A stretch of 64,000 nt of DNA from Parabacteroides sp. An277 (lineage in GTDB: Bacteria; Bacteroidota; Bacteroidia; Bacteroidales; Tannerellaceae): assembly GCF_002159645.1 (NCBI RefSeq), contig NZ_NFJB01000004.1, positions 62,001 through 126,000 on the forward strand. Reading direction: 5' to 3'. The notes beneath the pieces were generated by a model that was not told where the DNA came from, ran no database searches, and was given only the letters and a program-made list of their open reading frames with translations. Positions 42,470-49,568 of the stretch are shown in pieces. Position 1 is the stretch's first letter; each line of letters starts with the position of its first letter. Position numbers and translations under genes: made by a program.

Positions 42470-42579
42470 ATGCCCTGTTCCCACGTCATGCGCGAACAAA
42501 AAATAGGAAATGCCACGCAGATACCCATTATGCTACACACCCAAATTCCAAGGGGAAAAACGAGCCCCTTGTGTGGCTG

Positions 42580-42640
42580 CAGGCCTCGCTTCGCTTCGAC
42601 CGCGCAGCTATGCATTGAAGCCCTCTTCGAGGACTCTTTT
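42580..42640. repeat. dispersed repeat, GCGAGGCCTGCAG type, copy 1
   Basis: On the minus strand this reads CGGTCGAAGCGAAGCGAGGC followed by CTGCAG. Close copies occur near 42885, 50047, 51742 and, in the opposite direction, near 51885. All lie between genes. Confidence 0.7.
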
Positions 42641-42671
42641 ATATCCATACCGATGGTGTAGTAAAACAGGA

Positions 42672-42843
42672 AAATAGGATTAAGAAGTAACTGAAAAGCT
42701 CCCCTGCTTTGATAGGGGAGCTGGCGAAGCGATAGCTGAGACTGAGGGGTTCATACACACAAAAAGAATATCAACCCCTCACCCCTTCGGGGAGCTCCCC
42801 TATCAAAGCAGGGGAGCTTTTCAGTTACTTCTTAATCCTATTT
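42672..42843. repeat. perfect 51-bp inverted repeat element
   Basis: The arms 42672-42722 and 42793-42843 are exact reverse complements over 51 bases. Each arm also contains its own palindrome (AGCTCCCCT and AGGGGAGCT), and the 70-base centre has a further pair (GAGGGGTT and AACCCCTC). A related element lies at 51611-51740. It contains no gene and behaves like a mobile hairpin element. Confidence 0.9.
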
Positions 42844-42849
42844 CCTTAT

Positions 42850-43050
42850 TCTGATACACCATCCATCTTCAAGTAACCGTAGGTCGAAGCGAAGCGAGGC
42901 CTGCGGTATCGTATAGGCTCGTAGGGTCGGACCCACGCGTGTCCGCCTTTATATTCCGTTCTGTGTATCTATCTTATTCGAAGGTATAGTTCCATGTGCT
43001 GAAGGAGGCAGAAATTATCCCTTGTCCATTATCCATTGTCAATTTATTTT
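42850..43050. other. repeat-derived gap before marC
   Basis: Holds a second GTCGAAGCGAAGCGAGGCC repeat (about 42885), a degenerate GGGTCGGACCCACGCGTGTC palindrome (about 42927) and short TCCATTATCCATTGTC repeats. A TACCTTTG box at 43053-43060 is a plausible marC promoter. Confidence 0.55.
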
Positions 43051-43092: not shown

Positions 43093-43749
43093 ATGAACGA
43101 TACTGTATTTCCTTTTGCGCTGTTGTGCTTCACCTCCTTCTTCACCTTGATTAACCCGTTGGGCACCATGCCTGTCTTTTTGTCGATGACAACCGGCATG
43201 TCGGCGAAGGAACGGGAAAAAATCGCCCGCAAAGCGACGGCTGTCGCCTTCTTTATCATGATTTCCTTTACCATCTTCGGGCCTTTCCTTTTCCAACTAT
43301 TCGGTTTATCGACCAATGGATTCCGCATTGCGGGCGGGATTGTCATCATGAAGATTGGCTACGACATGCTCCAAGCGCACTACACACATGTGAAGTTCGA
43401 TGAAAAGAGCCTGCAGCAGACGGCCGACGATATCTCTGTCACCCCGCTTGCCATCCCGATGCTATGCGGCCCGGGCGCGATTGCCAATGGCATCGTGTTG
43501 ATGGAAGATGCCGGCACTTGGGTGAACAAGGCTGTCCTCATAGGGGTGATTGCTTTGGTGTTTGTCCTGACTTTTTTCATCCTCAAAGCCTCCACGCGGT
43601 TGGTGCTCCTAATGGGCGAGACGGGCAACAACGTCATGATGCGCCTCATGGGGCTTATCTTGATGGTCATTGCGGTGGAATGTTTCGTGAGCGGAGCCAA
43701 ACCTATCTTAGTGGATATCCTCCAGCAAGGGACTGCCTCAGATTCATAA
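43093..43749 (+). CDS. MarC family integral membrane protein
   Basis: 218 residues with six hydrophobic segments and family hallmarks: TSFFTLINPLGTMPVFLSMT at the start, FRIAGGIVIMKIGYDML, and PLAIPMLCGPGAIANGIVLM. MarC proteins are annotated as antibiotic-resistance-associated, but their function is unproven. The gene stands alone, and its 3' side faces the invertible promoter segment; in the present orientation that promoter fires toward marC on the antisense strand. Confidence 0.9.
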   Translation: MNDTVFPFALLCFTSFFTLINPLGTMPVFLSMTTGMSAKEREKIARKATAVAFFIMISFTIFGPFLFQLFGLSTNGFRIAGGIVIMKIGYDMLQAHYTHVKFDEKSLQQTADDISVTPLAIPMLCGPGAIANGIVLMEDAGTWVNKAVLIGVIALVFVLTFFILKASTRLVLLMGETGNNVMMRLMGLILMVIAVECFVSGAKPILVDILQQGTASDS

Positions 43750-43875
43750 GGAATCTGTGGTCATCTGTTAAATCCGCATTCTGTGCGCGGAAGGAGGCGG
43801 AATAGAACGGCCGGCTCCTAATATAATATAGGTATAGAGATTCCTTACGCTGAAGGAGGGGAATGAGTCTTTGAA

Positions 43876-44124
43876 GTTGTCTTATCAAGACTACGTCAGT
43901 TTAACCGTGATTCGCGTTAGAAACGCTACAAATGTAGTTATTCTTTTCTTAAAATCAAGTATAAAATAGAAAAAATATTATCTCAAAGTGATTTTTTTCT
44001 TTGAGACTACTCTTTTTATACCTAACACTGTTCTATTTTAACGCTTCAAATGTTAAAATCGAGACCTTAATCACGCCCAAGACCCGGAATTTACTCAAAA
44101 CTGACGTAGTCTTGATAAGACAAC
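43876..44124. promoter_or_regulatory. invertible promoter segment flanked by perfect 27-bp inverted repeats
   Basis: The repeats 43876-43902 and 44098-44124 are exact reverse complements (each includes CTTATCAAGACTACGTCAG); matching stops at both edges, which is how recombination sites look. The 195-base centre carries one good promoter, on the minus strand: CTTG (43956-43959), 19 bases, TACATTTG (43929-43936). It points away from the SusC gene at 44210, so that gene is read as OFF. Inversion would place the -7 box at 44064-44071 on the plus strand, about 140 bases before the start. No invertase gene lies in the window. Confidence 0.85.
43929..43959 (-). promoter_or_regulatory. promoter inside the invertible segment, facing left
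   Basis: CTTG, 19-base gap, TACATTTG on the minus strand fits the Bacteroides consensus. No comparable plus-strand promoter was found in the segment. Confidence 0.75.
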
Positions 44125-44209
44125 GTCAAAAAACAAAAGGCGCAAGTAAGCTAACCCCGCTGATTCTGTTACAACAAGGACATATTTTAAACTAACTAAA
44201 TTAATATTT

Positions 44210-47200
44210 ATGCCAAACAAGACAACAAATTCCATTTGTTTGCTATTAGTGGCAACTGCATTGAGCATCACAGGTAATGTGTACGCAGAAATTGCCCCGG
44301 CAAACCCGAATGCCCTCCGTGCACAGCAGGACGGCACAGTGACGGGAAATGTGGTGGATGCTTACGGTCCGGTCATCGGTGCATCTGTAATCATCAAAGG
44401 TACAACTACGGGTAATATTACCGACATGGACGGTAACTTTACCTTGGAAGGTGTGAAGAATGGCGACGTCATTCAAATCTCTTACGTGGGATACACGACG
44501 CAGGAAATCGTTTACAACGGACAGCCCTCTATTAGTGTGACTTTATCTGAAGACTCCGAGCAATTGGAAGAACTCGTGGTAACGGCGTTGGGTATGAAGC
44601 GTTCTGAAAAGTCGTTGGGTTACGCCATGACGGAATTGAAGAGCGAGGATTTGAACAAGAACGTTATCAACCCGGTTTCCGCTTTGCAAGGTAAAGTAGC
44701 CGGTGTGGAAATCTCCGGGTCTGATGGTGGTATGTTCGGTTCTACCAAAATCTTGATTCGTGGTGCTTCTACCTTGGGTAAGAACAACCAGCCGATTTAC
44801 GTAGTCGATGGTGTGATTCTGGATAATGGTATCAAAGATGGTGATCCAGATTATACACAGACCGATGCCGACTACGGTAATGAATTGAAGAACTTGAACC
44901 CGGATGACTTCGAAACGGTATCTGTCTTGAAAGGTGCTGCCGCTACCGCCCTCTACGGTTCGCGTGGTTTGAATGGTGCCGTCGTGATTACGACCAAGAG
45001 CGGTAAAGGCATGGACGGTTTGGGTATCAACTTCTCGCAAACCGTAGGTATAGACCACATGCGTAAACAACCTAATTTGCAGTATGAATATGGTCCTGGC
45101 CAGTATTCAGGTAATGTTTCTTATGGTCAAACTGATGCGAATGGCAACTATTACAAGTTTGATAACGCGGGACAGTTTATGTTGAATAATTCCGGACAAC
45201 ATACGGTACTTGGTATGACGGGACGCCATTGGGGACCGAAATATGATGGTTCTACTATTGAACTTTGGGATGGTAGTACTGGTGTATATAGTCCGTATGA
45301 AAACAACATGGTAGATGCGTATGATTTGGGTGTCAACTCGAATACAAACATTTCAGTAAGTGGTTCGAATGAAAAGACATCGTTCTATACATCATTGTCC
45401 TATAAATATGCAAATGGTACGTTGCCTAACAATAGTTTTCAACGCCTTTCGTTTTTAGGTAAAGCTACACATAAGATTACAGACAGAGTGGAAATTGAAG
45501 CTTCTATGAGTTTTGCTACATCTAAACCAAGAAATGCACAAGCAAACTTAGGTGAGGCCTTCATTGATACCAATATCGGTCCGTTCGGAGGTTTGTATGA
45601 TACTCGCTATTGGAGAACTCGCTATAAGGGTTCACACGGAGGTTTGGCAAGTTCTGACTATGGTGATGAATATGCAAACGTTCCGGGTATCAGCCAGTGG
45701 TGGAATATTTTTGAAAATGATTACCGCCAGACGGAAACTTCGGTTCGCCCTGCGTTGATTTTGAATATAGACCTCTTCGATTGGTTAAAGTTCCGTGCGG
45801 AAGGTAACTACAATAATTATAATAAACGATTCGAAAGTAAGCAACCTGGTACAGGATATGCGAATACCAACTCCGGTTATTATGGCTTAGGTCTGTATGA
45901 AAAGGAACAGACGAATTTCAACGCTACCTTTACGTTGAATAAGACTGTAGGTGATTGGACATTTGGCGGATTCTTACGTGGTGAATATTTCAATAACTAC
46001 GAAATGAATATGTCGATGAATACGAATGGAGGTTTAGTTGTACCGAACCAATATTTCATCGAAAACTCCCGTAATGCGATTTCTTACACAGGTAAGTTGC
46101 AATACGAGAAGCGTATGCTTTCTATCGCATTCCAAGCTAGTGCCAGCTGGAAAGACCAAATCTTTATGGATGTAACCGGACGTAACGACTGGTCTTCTTC
46201 ATTGGTTTATGCAGATACGCATGGTAACTACTCTTATTTCTATCCGTCAGTAAATGGTTCTTGGTTGATTACTTCTACGTTCCGCGATCAATTGCCGGAA
46301 TGGATTTCTTTTGCCAAGATTCGTGGATCTTGGGCGCAGGTAGGTAACGATACAGAGTCTTATATTATTAACTCAGCTTATTCGTTGAATACTTCTACGA
46401 TGGCTAATGGTAGCAGTGTATATGCGTTGTCTCTGCCTTCAACCGCTTATTCTACGGATTTGAAGCCGGAACGCAAGAATGCTTGGGAAATTGGTTTGGA
46501 CTGGCGTTTCATCGAGAACCGTATTGGCATTGACTTTACGTATTATAAAGAAAATACGAAAGACCAGATTATGTCAATCTCTGTTCCGTCTGTTTCAGGT
46601 ATTAGCAACCAGTTAATCAATGCGGGTAATATCCAGAACAAGGGTGTTGAAATCGCGTTGAACACGACTCCGTATCAAAATAAGGATTGGACTTGGGATT
46701 TGAACTTTACCTATACCAAGAATACCAGTAAGATTGTTGAGTTGCATGAAAATGTAGCAGATTACATCTTGTTGGAAGGTGATCCTGCTTATGGTAACTA
46801 TCGTATTGGTTCTGTAGCCAAGGTAGGTTCTGAATATGGTTTGTTGATGTCTGACTCAAAAGTAAAAGTTGACGAAGCAACAGGTCTTCCTGTATTGGAT
46901 GCTACTTCTTACTATTCTGATATGGGTGCCATGTATTACCAGCGTGCTGGTACGGCTGAAATCATCGGTTCTATCCAACCGGACTTCTTAGGTTCTGTCA
47001 ATACAACTGTAAGTTACAAGAACTGGAGTTTGAGTGCTTCATTCGATATGCGCTTCGGTGGTTATGTAGCATCTTACGGTTCTCGTTATGGTACAGCTTA
47101 TGGTTTGACGGAAACATCATTGGCTGGACGTGATTCAGAACATGGTGGTATTACTTATACCTCTATGTGGGATGGCAAGACTTATAATGACGGTGTGATT

Positions 47201-47638
47201 CCGGTAGGTATCATTGAAGGCGGAACGACTTTGACCCGTCCGGATGGTGTAACGTATACGGTCGCAGAAGGTGGTGAAACATTCCAGCAGTTGTATGACA
47301 AGGGTATTGTAGAACCGTTGCATGCTTCATCTTGGACTTATTGGAATAATGCTTGGTCTACAGGTACTATAAATGATAATTGGTTTAAGAAATTGAACTA
47401 TATTGCTTTCCGTGAACTTTCATTGAGTTACCGTGTGCCGAAATCGTTCTGCGAGAAGTTCCATGCAAAGAACTTGAACTTGTCGTTTACAGCTCGCAAC
47501 TTAGGTTATTTGTTGAACTCGATGCCGAATAAGGAAAATCCGGAATCAGTTCGTGGTACTTCTGCTTCTGAGTTCCGTGTTCGTTCGTTCGACGGTCTTA
47601 CTACCAGCTATATGTTTACTTTAAATGTTGGATTCTAA
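44210..47638 (+). CDS. SusC/RagA family receptor, phase-variable candidate
   Basis: 1142 residues: signal peptide (MPNKTTNSICLLLVATALSI, cleavage after about 26), a carboxypeptidase-regulatory-like domain (about 43-120, GTVTGNVVDAYGPVIGASVI), LEELVVTALGMKRSEKSLGY, a plug with PIYVVDGVILDNG and FETVSVLKGAAATALYGSRG, and a barrel ending LNVGF. It belongs to the branch that pairs with SusD-like_2 lipoproteins. The upstream invertible promoter suggests ON/OFF switching. Codon use is regular and T-ending, as expected for a strongly expressed surface protein when ON. Its SusD partner follows after 16 bases. Confidence 0.95.
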   Translation: MPNKTTNSICLLLVATALSITGNVYAEIAPANPNALRAQQDGTVTGNVVDAYGPVIGASVIIKGTTTGNITDMDGNFTLEGVKNGDVIQISYVGYTTQEIVYNGQPSISVTLSEDSEQLEELVVTALGMKRSEKSLGYAMTELKSEDLNKNVINPVSALQGKVAGVEISGSDGGMFGSTKILIRGASTLGKNNQPIYVVDGVILDNGIKDGDPDYTQTDADYGNELKNLNPDDFETVSVLKGAAATALYGSRGLNGAVVITTKSGKGMDGLGINFSQTVGIDHMRKQPNLQYEYGPGQYSGNVSYGQTDANGNYYKFDNAGQFMLNNSGQHTVLGMTGRHWGPKYDGSTIELWDGSTGVYSPYENNMVDAYDLGVNSNTNISVSGSNEKTSFYTSLSYKYANGTLPNNSFQRLSFLGKATHKITDRVEIEASMSFATSKPRNAQANLGEAFIDTNIGPFGGLYDTRYWRTRYKGSHGGLASSDYGDEYANVPGISQWWNIFENDYRQTETSVRPALILNIDLFDWLKFRAEGNYNNYNKRFESKQPGTGYANTNSGYYGLGLYEKEQTNFNATFTLNKTVGDWTFGGFLRGEYFNNYEMNMSMNTNGGLVVPNQYFIENSRNAISYTGKLQYEKRMLSIAFQASASWKDQIFMDVTGRNDWSSSLVYADTHGNYSYFYPSVNGSWLITSTFRDQLPEWISFAKIRGSWAQVGNDTESYIINSAYSLNTSTMANGSSVYALSLPSTAYSTDLKPERKNAWEIGLDWRFIENRIGIDFTYYKENTKDQIMSISVPSVSGISNQLINAGNIQNKGVEIALNTTPYQNKDWTWDLNFTYTKNTSKIVELHENVADYILLEGDPAYGNYRIGSVAKVGSEYGLLMSDSKVKVDEATGLPVLDATSYYSDMGAMYYQRAGTAEIIGSIQPDFLGSVNTTVSYKNWSLSASFDMRFGGYVASYGSRYGTAYGLTETSLAGRDSEHGGITYTSMWDGKTYNDGVIPVGIIEGGTTLTRPDGVTYTVAEGGETFQQLYDKGIVEPLHASSWTYWNNAWSTGTINDNWFKKLNYIAFRELSLSYRVPKSFCEKFHAKNLNLSFTARNLGYLLNSMPNKENPESVRGTSASEFRVRSFDGLTTSYMFTLNVGF

Positions 47639-47654
47639 TAAAGATACAGACACA

Positions 47655-49568
47655 ATGAAATCTAAAAATAATTATAAGAAAATATTGATTGCCTCCTTGA
47701 TGGGAGCCGCAGTCTTGGGTACGACCAGTTGCCGGGATGATTTCGCGGATATCAATACCAGCCCGTCGCAGGTAACTACTCCGCAGCCAACCTATTTGTT
47801 CGCGCAAGCTGTGTTGGATTTTGAAAACTCAGGTTATACTTATTGGTTCTACAATGCGCCTATGATGTTCGAATGGGCTCAGATGGCGACGCCGACAGAT
47901 AGTTATACGGCTACATTTACCACGACAACGGCCAGTGGAGACCAAGGTTCTCAATACCTGAGAACATTGAAATATGTCAATGAAGTAAAGTATTACCAGT
48001 CTACCTTGAGTGAAGAGGAAGCTGCGCAATACAACCAGATTCTGGCTTGCCTGAATATCATGACTGCTTATCTGGGCATCTTTGACTCGGATATGTATGG
48101 TGATCTCCAATTTACAGAAGCTGCACAAGCTTTACATGGTGGTACATTAACACCTGCTTATGACACATTGGAGAGCTTGTATGATTTGTGGTTAACTCAA
48201 TTGGATGAAGCAATCAATACATTGACTACAGCTACAAACCAAATTGAGTTGAATACACAAGACGTAGTCTATGGTGGAGACATGGCTAAATGGGCAAAAT
48301 TGGCTAATTCAGTTAAACTGAGAATCGCATCCCGTTTGTTAATCAGAGACCGTGCTCGTGCTTTACAGATTGCACAACAAGTAGCCACAGCTTCTTGTGG
48401 GTATATTGACACGATGGACGATGCTATGTTGTTCAATAAGTCAACGCATAATACCAGTTCGGATGATTACGCTTTCCATTGGAGCAATGGTTTTATGGAT
48501 GGTACAGCTGCCAGCCAGCGTGTCATGAATTTCATGGTGGAAAATCAAGACCCGCGCGTTCGTTTCTGTTACCAGAAAAACGAATGGAACTCACGCATTG
48601 TGCAGGCATTCTACGACCAAGACCGGGAAATCCCGTCTTACATCGAAGAAAACGTAGAATATACGACAGATGCCAATGGACATAAGCAATTTGTAGCTTG
48701 GAAAGGATTAGGCGAACCGTGGGTACGCTATTATGGTATTCCAGTTGAGTTTAATGCGCGCGATAATGCTGCCCAGTATGGTGACTACTTCAACTACGAT
48801 ACCCAGTATATGATTTATGAAGTAGGAGGTACAAACTACAAATCTTACCGTCCGTACTCTATGTTCCAGCAGCAAATGATTATTGGACGTTATTATACAA
48901 CTACTATCCCGACAGTTCCAGGTGGTCCGGTTATCGAACGTACTGAAAACCGTCCTTGGTATGGTTTGTATATGGGTGCTGCAGAAGTAAACCTCTCATT
49001 GGCTGAGTTCGCTTTATTGGGTGCTGCATTGCCACAGTCGGCTGAATATTATTACAACCGTGGTCTGGAGGCTTCTGTCCGGGAATATGACCGTTTAGCA
49101 GGTTTGAACCAGATTGCTTATTATGGCACTACATACGATTATGACCCGAATGAAGTTTCTATCGAACTGAAAGACGGTGAAATCGAAGCCATGATGGCAA
49201 ACGAAGATTATCAATTGACAGGTTCTCAGGCAGAGCAGTTGGAAAAGGTATATATCCAACAAATGTTGAACTTCACGCTTTATCCAAATGAGCAATTTGT
49301 AACTGCACGTCGTACGGGTCTGCCTAAATTCAATTCGAATTTAATTGCTCGTGAAAACTTCACAGTAGTTCCGGTAACGCAGATTCCGCGTCGTTTCGAT
49401 ACAGGTATTCCTTTGGAAACGGAATTGACTTACCAGATCGAATTGGATGCATTGGCTCGTCAAGGTCTCACACCGACATCTGCAGGTCCTAACGGTCAAA
49501 TCTTACACGACGAACGTTTGTGGCAAGATGTAGGTGCTCCGGAATGGGGCGCAGGTCCACAATTATAA
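47655..49568 (+). CDS. SusD-like lipoprotein (SusD-like_2 type)
   Basis: About 637 residues from MKSKNNYKKILIASLMGAAV with lipobox GTTSC (Cys26); the longer frame from 47625 would overlap the SusC end and lacks a proper signal start. It has the pattern of the second SusD family: FADINTSPSQVTTPQPTYLF near the N-terminus, ILACLNIMTAYLGIFDSDMYGDLQFTEA, DMAKWAKLANSVKLRIASRL and a C-terminal region with FTLYPNEQFVTARRTGLPKF. It forms the lid of the SusC pore encoded upstream and would switch with it. Confidence 0.93.
   Translation: MKSKNNYKKILIASLMGAAVLGTTSCRDDFADINTSPSQVTTPQPTYLFAQAVLDFENSGYTYWFYNAPMMFEWAQMATPTDSYTATFTTTTASGDQGSQYLRTLKYVNEVKYYQSTLSEEEAAQYNQILACLNIMTAYLGIFDSDMYGDLQFTEAAQALHGGTLTPAYDTLESLYDLWLTQLDEAINTLTTATNQIELNTQDVVYGGDMAKWAKLANSVKLRIASRLLIRDRARALQIAQQVATASCGYIDTMDDAMLFNKSTHNTSSDDYAFHWSNGFMDGTAASQRVMNFMVENQDPRVRFCYQKNEWNSRIVQAFYDQDREIPSYIEENVEYTTDANGHKQFVAWKGLGEPWVRYYGIPVEFNARDNAAQYGDYFNYDTQYMIYEVGGTNYKSYRPYSMFQQQMIIGRYYTTTIPTVPGGPVIERTENRPWYGLYMGAAEVNLSLAEFALLGAALPQSAEYYYNRGLEASVREYDRLAGLNQIAYYGTTYDYDPNEVSIELKDGEIEAMMANEDYQLTGSQAEQLEKVYIQQMLNFTLYPNEQFVTARRTGLPKFNSNLIARENFTVVPVTQIPRRFDTGIPLETELTYQIELDALARQGLTPTSAGPNGQILHDERLWQDVGAPEWGAGPQL

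Follow-up and report, generated by a model that had tools for sequence, protein, structure and literature searches.

Upstream of a SusC-SusD gene pair in the window (the whole stretch of 64,000 nucleotides from Parabacteroides sp. An277 analysed here), two inverted repeats enclose a single promoter that faces away from the pair. This arrangement raises the question of whether the promoter is a phase-variable switch and, if so, which enzyme turns it. SusC/SusD transporters rank among the main nutrient importers of gut Bacteroidota and may also be targets of phages or of the immune system, so that the copies in the ON state decide both the diet of a cell and its attackers. Our sequence comparisons suggest, with a probability of about 0.9, that the window locus has a phase-variable promoter, inverted by a trans-acting tyrosine recombinase whose targets include at least four further SusC loci.

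The repeats and the promoter at the window locus

The first-pass annotation had reported two exact 27-base inverted repeats 195 bases apart. These repeats were recovered in the window sequence (43876-43902 and 44098-44124), and we found that, if one mismatch is allowed, the arms lengthen to 33 nt (43870-43902 and 44098-44130; 195 bp between them), the whole invertible piece being 261 bases with the arms included (Table 1). Each arm on its own is a near-palindrome, GACGTWGTCTT-NNN-AAGACWACGTC, with a short centre that is the same in both sites, which is the form expected for a putative tyrosine-recombinase site. When the window was shuffled 100 times with its dinucleotides preserved, the 19-nt core never appeared, three mismatches being allowed. 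The near-palindromic form of the arms and the further copies in the genome (see below) are additions to the first-pass annotation.

Palindromic arms that form hairpins in RNA could also be the operator pair of a transcription factor, or a terminator or attenuator, rather than recombination sites. We consider this extremely improbable, because neither binding sites nor hairpins explain the opposite orientations of the segment among paralogues and orthologues, because contigs break exactly at such repeats, and because terminator prediction gave no call at the repeats or between the OFF-state promoter and the MarC gene.

When both strands of 43740-44209 were searched for TTG-N18-21-TAnnTTTG, there was one exact match (shuffles averaged 0.034). 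It was the minus-strand promoter, CTTG/19/TACATTTG, that had been described as facing away from position 44210; no plus-strand match was found in this region, even with one mismatch, in line with the earlier statement that there is no rival promoter. The genes downstream, which had been named a SusC-SusD pair, matched the TIGR04056 and PF12771 profiles. As in Bacteroidales invertons, a promoter enclosed by inverted repeats precedes a surface gene. As assembled, the promoter points to the MarC gene and would read antisense to it. Inversion about position 44000 would bring the -7 box to the plus strand at 44064-44071, facing the SusC start, and our recomputation gave the same position as the earlier estimate. 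In the window (TACATTTGTAGCGTTTC), the -7 box TACATTTG is followed by TAGCGTTTC, a downstream context close to that of the sister loci in the ON state (TAGCGTTC and CAGCGTTC), yet the box faces away from SusC. The window copy was called OFF because the promoter faces SusC at the three intact sister loci, and not from one motif alone; the earlier call of the OFF orientation is thereby confirmed. Inside the invertible segment there is also a dyad, TTTTAAC-N-GTTAAAA, which would be upstream of the promoter once ON and is a putative regulator site, possibly a second layer of control.

Table 1. Positions of the (putative) switch elements and of the neighbouring genes in the window
Feature	Position	Strand	Remarks
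MarC-family membrane protein, upstream	43093..43749	+	PF01914 E 1.1e-57
Putative distal recombination site, left arm	43870..43902	+	33-nt arm, 97% complementary to right arm; site family recurs at other SusC loci
Left-arm near-palindromic core	43873-43897		GAAGTTGTCTT-ATC-AAGACTACGTC
Predicted invertible promoter segment, 195 bp, OFF orientation	43903..44097	.	Homologous segment inverted at paralogue C49
-7 box TACATTTG	43929..43936	-	Sole exact match in 43740-44209
-33 box CTTG	43956..43959	-	19 nt upstream of -7 box
Dyad TTTTAAC..GTTAAAA	44035..44059	.	Kept at C49 and G027 C1, partly at C21 (L141, L125, L036)
Putative proximal recombination site, right arm	44098..44130	-	Core 44103-44127
SusC/RagA family TonB-dependent outer-membrane transporter, 1142 aa, predicted controlled gene	44210..47638	+	TIGR04056 E 1.5e-182
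SusD-like lipoprotein, 647 aa, overlaps susC end	47625..49568	+	PF12771 E 3.9e-38

Sister loci and the orientation of the segment

A search for other copies of the repeat, which the first-pass annotation had called for, was performed on the genome of the window (G000; 3.68 Mb in 101 contigs, the window being on contig C36), and four more SusC loci were found to carry the same site. The site family is present at C36, C15, C23 and C91 and at the ends of C25 and C21. At C15, C23, C91 and C25, the nearer copy lies roughly 60-120 bp before the SusC start. The first three of these loci have another copy, inverted, some 155-195 bp farther from the gene, and the Bacteroides-type promoters between the arms face SusC, namely are ON (TAATTTTGCAGCGTTC, TACCTTTGTAGCGTTC and TATCTTTGCGTACTTC, respectively). 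The fourth sister locus is divided between two contig ends (C25 and C21). The 4-nt centre of the site differs among the five loci and is the same in both arms of each locus (TATC in the window, TAGC at C15, AAAC at C23, AAGC at C91, and AACC at C25 and C21); C25 and C21 were taken as the halves of one inverton because the AACC centre is common to both. In the relative G009, the centres match in 12 of 12 pairs among the matches listed. Exchange by tyrosine recombinases needs a matched central overlap, so that matched private centres would make inversion at a single locus more likely than rearrangements that join different loci. Five SusC loci in G000 have one site in common, from which we infer control by a single enzyme: since the same sites lie at at least four other switches, one remote recombinase probably flips all five.

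The orientation of the segment was compared among paralogues and orthologues. A SusC paralogue at C49 (G000:C49:14758, L141) has the same SusC N-terminus as the window gene and a similar leader, and its promoter segment is opposite to that of the window, in the ON orientation (alignment 194 inverted versus 45 the same way; shuffle maximum 46). No recognisable recombination sites are left at C49, which reads as a former switch now locked on; invertons of the window family can lose their sites. There were no recombination sites at C8. The relative on contig C1 of G027 has the segment in the orientation of the window (177 versus 51). The orthologous SusC proteins of G005 and G018 are identical at 1078 of 1142 aligned positions. 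The flanks of their genes are collinear (left score 1140, right 176) with an inverted core (230 versus 38), and TACCTTTG points towards SusC in one genome and away from it in the other; collinear flanks around an inverted core indicate that elements of this kind do flip. Because a further SusC-like gene begins in the left flank and runs the other way, the flip at this locus probably selects between two transporters. Note that the orientation comparisons of L122 with L142 and of L131 with L136 were uninformative, since they concern two divergent SusC genes with one segment viewed from both sides.

Several contigs end at sites of this family. C25 stops where the repeat has its inner edge, at most 2 nt from the site core, C21 begins within a segment resembling that of the window, and contigs of G001 (two), G019, G022, G026 and G028 start or end within 2 nt of the site. 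Contig breaks at so short a repeat suggest that the reads held both orientations.

The two orientations were thus seen at the C49 paralogue and the G005/G018 inverton and not at the window locus, which has one orientation only in the assembly and, given this, could be slow or locked. A fossil segment that is now locked OFF, with SusC silent or driven from elsewhere, would agree with the single assembled orientation, as well as with the loss of sites from the C49 paralogue and the absence of any at C8. However, the 27-nt identity of the arms, the intact promoter, the matched centre and the end of C25 of the same genome at its repeat all speak against such a fossil, which seems to us quite improbable. 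The sister loci that share the site and its position, the opposite orientation at C49 and the inverted core of G005/G018 all support the invertible promoter that the first-pass annotation had proposed.

Candidate recombinases and their sites

The search for a tyrosine or serine recombinase gene in G000, also called for earlier, gave 16 PF00589 (tyrosine) and 2 PF00239 (serine) matches, none of them beside the window-type sites. The enzyme that most likely serves the window switch, and with good probability does so, is the 325-aa recombinase of C47 (G000:C47:42149-43123; PF00589 E 7.7e-20). Its orthologues directly adjoin a SusC/SusD pair with an inverton in G002, G003, G004, G005 and G006, so that a PF00589 gene is linked to the site family in five relatives. 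In G000 the gene is remote, no window-type site being found within about 10 kb of it, and the ABC-recombinase neighbourhood is preserved from G005 to G000.

A real inverton might also be turned by a different enzyme, such as the 315-aa recombinase of C31, the 412-aa recombinase of C11, the Mpi-like serine recombinase of C24, XerC/XerD or a mobile-element integrase. The number of recombinase matches in G000 with none beside the sites, the close orthologues that C31 and C11 also have in G027, and the lack of an inverton adjoining the C47 gene in G000 are in favour of this explanation. However, neither the C31 nor the C11 family was found beside a window-type site, and C31, C11 and the Mpi-like gene have other repeats nearby. 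The C31 recombinase (G000:C31:30575-31519, L060) was the first lead (82% orthologue in G027, next best 57%) and was rejected because a different site, CTTATTTATGAAATAAG, adjoins it, 3' of the gene both here and in most relatives examined. The C11 recombinase (G000:C11:83058-83939, L028) was also rejected, since this gene and its G027 orthologue (L058) have their own site around TCTCTT-NNN-AAGAGA, and the repeat near the Mpi-like gene differs from the window site. We therefore regard a different enzyme as unlikely, though by no means far-fetched, and retain the C47 recombinase as the preferred candidate.

Two of these other recombinases appear to belong to separate systems. The C31 family (relatives L062-L080) is often multicopy per genome with the inverted repeat usually after the gene, and together with CTTATTTATGAAATAAG it is a predicted second, self-linked inverton system. 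The C11 recombinase is near a WecA-like sugar-phosphate transferase, has its own inverted repeats GTACTTCTCTTCGTAAGAGAGGTACA, and probably forms a capsule or exopolysaccharide switch. The Mpi-like serine recombinase (G000:C24:9540-9968, L030; 200 aa) has an imperfect inverted repeat nearby. On the contig of the window, the tyrosine recombinase at C36:46973 resembles a mobile-element integrase and has a 98% identical counterpart in G027.

Of the 39 genomes of the genus, 2 had the exact window-type site, and so did 2 of the 125 genomes of the family; in named genomes, the exact-site matches were one Parabacteroides MAG and one contig labelled as a Clostridia MAG (CANQJK010000014.1, L041 405-423). 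In other species, an inverton with the site TAGTTCT-NNN-AGAACTA occupies the same place at relatives of the window SusC. The TAGTTCT site is strongly enriched in many genomes, with counts versus control of 56 and 3 in G009, 26 and 2 in G010, 30 and 2 in G014, and 30 and 1 in G038; it is absent from G000, where the counts were 0 and 3. Six or more such sites were found in 13 of the 19 genomes with an arm-bearing orthologue, in 1 of the 13 without an orthologue and in none of the 7 with an arm-less one. The comparison of arm-bearing with no orthologue gave P = 0.0008, in a test which treats related genomes as independent and uses a cut-off of 6 chosen after the counts were seen.

PF17293, the arm-binding domain present in the G003 and G005 orthologues, is absent from the C47 enzyme, which has PF13102 and PF00589. 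The identity of the C47 enzyme is 66% with the G027 orthologue and 44-51% with the other orthologues compared, and the latter are 62-96% identical mutually. In a FastTree tree of the orthologues, the short forms (G012, G034, G000, G027, G029, G030 and G028) make up one clade with a local support of 0.95, and they have 22-64 residues before the core-binding domain versus 106-161 in the others. The sites in this clade are TAGTCTT/AAGACTA (G000 and G027), TAGTCTT/AGGACTA (G028) and TAGTTTT/AAGACTA (G030), mostly paired as invertons, and one pair in G030 has a divergent SusC gene on either side; the pattern used gave no site in G012, G034 or G029. Since the changed sites were found only in part of the short-form clade, the evidence that enzyme and sites changed together is suggestive. 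A tentative history, to which we give slightly less than even odds, is a one-time loss of the arm-binding domain in a master recombinase, followed by drift in recognition from TAGTTCT/AGAACTA to TAGTCTT/AAGACTA, TAGTCTT/AGGACTA or TAGTTTT/AAGACTA, with many unlinked targets following. If true, such co-divergence would be a natural experiment in which a trans-acting recombinase and its whole target set change specificity. The series of sites across species would then be a tractable case of recombinase specificity shifting with many targets, useful for evolution and for picking orthogonal recombinases.

In G028 and G030, the site pairs L197 3413/3601, L198 3412/3632 and L199 3604/3761 precede a conserved gene, MNW(K/R)..LLSVLLLCLALPNHAQ, which is apparently the first in a fimbrial-type operon.

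Proposed mechanism and relation to known switches

In the mechanism that we propose, a tyrosine recombinase supplied in trans would bind the near-palindromic sites at 43870-43902 and 44098-44130 and invert the intervening DNA. In the OFF state, the lone TAnnTTTG promoter would read leftwards and leave SusC/SusD without a promoter; in the ON state, the -7 box at 44064-44071 would drive reading through the right site into susC-susD. The binding arms would be common to all loci, the private 4-nt centre would limit exchange to the site pair of each locus, and the same enzyme would serve at least four other SusC loci in G000. The C47 enzyme comes from a lineage without the arm-binding domain, the target of which would have drifted from TAGTTCT-NNN-AGAACTA to TAGTCTT-NNN-AAGACTA. 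If this enzyme is correctly assigned, deletion of one gene would lock at least five SusC/SusD loci together. The ON transcript would carry a copy of the site as a hairpin in its 5' untranslated leader. In B. fragilis NCTC9343, more such repeats between promoter and genes are accompanied by less transcription of the EPS operon (PMC4747536), and because of this inverse relation the leader repeat may influence transcription at the window locus too.

Promoter switching of SusC/SusD is already known. In B. fragilis, Tsr0667 is described as a trans-acting tyrosine recombinase that inverts SusC/SusD promoters (Nakayama-Imaohji 2009, as cited in PMC4747536 and PMC11852207). As far as this description goes, the window system would resemble it in that a tyrosine recombinase would act in trans at several distant loci on segments controlling SusC/SusD outer-membrane proteins. 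Compared with Tsr0667 by description only, the window system differs in being from Parabacteroides and in having a single site pair at each locus, with simple inversion of the promoter, and the site GACGTWGTCTT-NNN-AAGACWACGTC. Tsr19 (BF2766) of B. fragilis, a tyrosine recombinase that flips one local and one distant promoter, is similar in the TAnnTTTG -7 boxes and in the repeats between promoter and genes, but its targets are the EPS operon and an outer-membrane gene cluster, and the enzyme is beside one target (PMC4747536). Mpi, a master enzyme that inverts many capsule promoters within the B. fragilis genome (PMC4747536, PMC12632263), would be comparable to the proposed enzyme in its number of targets, but it is a serine recombinase of capsule loci, and the gene of G000 that is Mpi-like in size and family is the one at C24 and not the C47 candidate.

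SusC/SusD invertons are described as widespread in gut Bacteroidales from PhaseFinder analysis of metagenomes, P. distasonis included, and that set likewise has invertible segments near SusC/SusD, with no Parabacteroides enzyme or site named in the passages found (PMC10939037). P. distasonis is also known to have inversions (PMC5903667). The openly readable main texts searched named neither an enzyme nor a site for the SusC switches of Parabacteroides. What is new here is the site sequence, together with the apparent co-divergence of enzyme and site.

Further inverted repeats are present near the window locus (42579-42904 and 42672-42843) and at L036 207-337. They include a GCAGGCCTCGCT..CTTCGACC element, which C21 has too, and form a REP-like repeat family.
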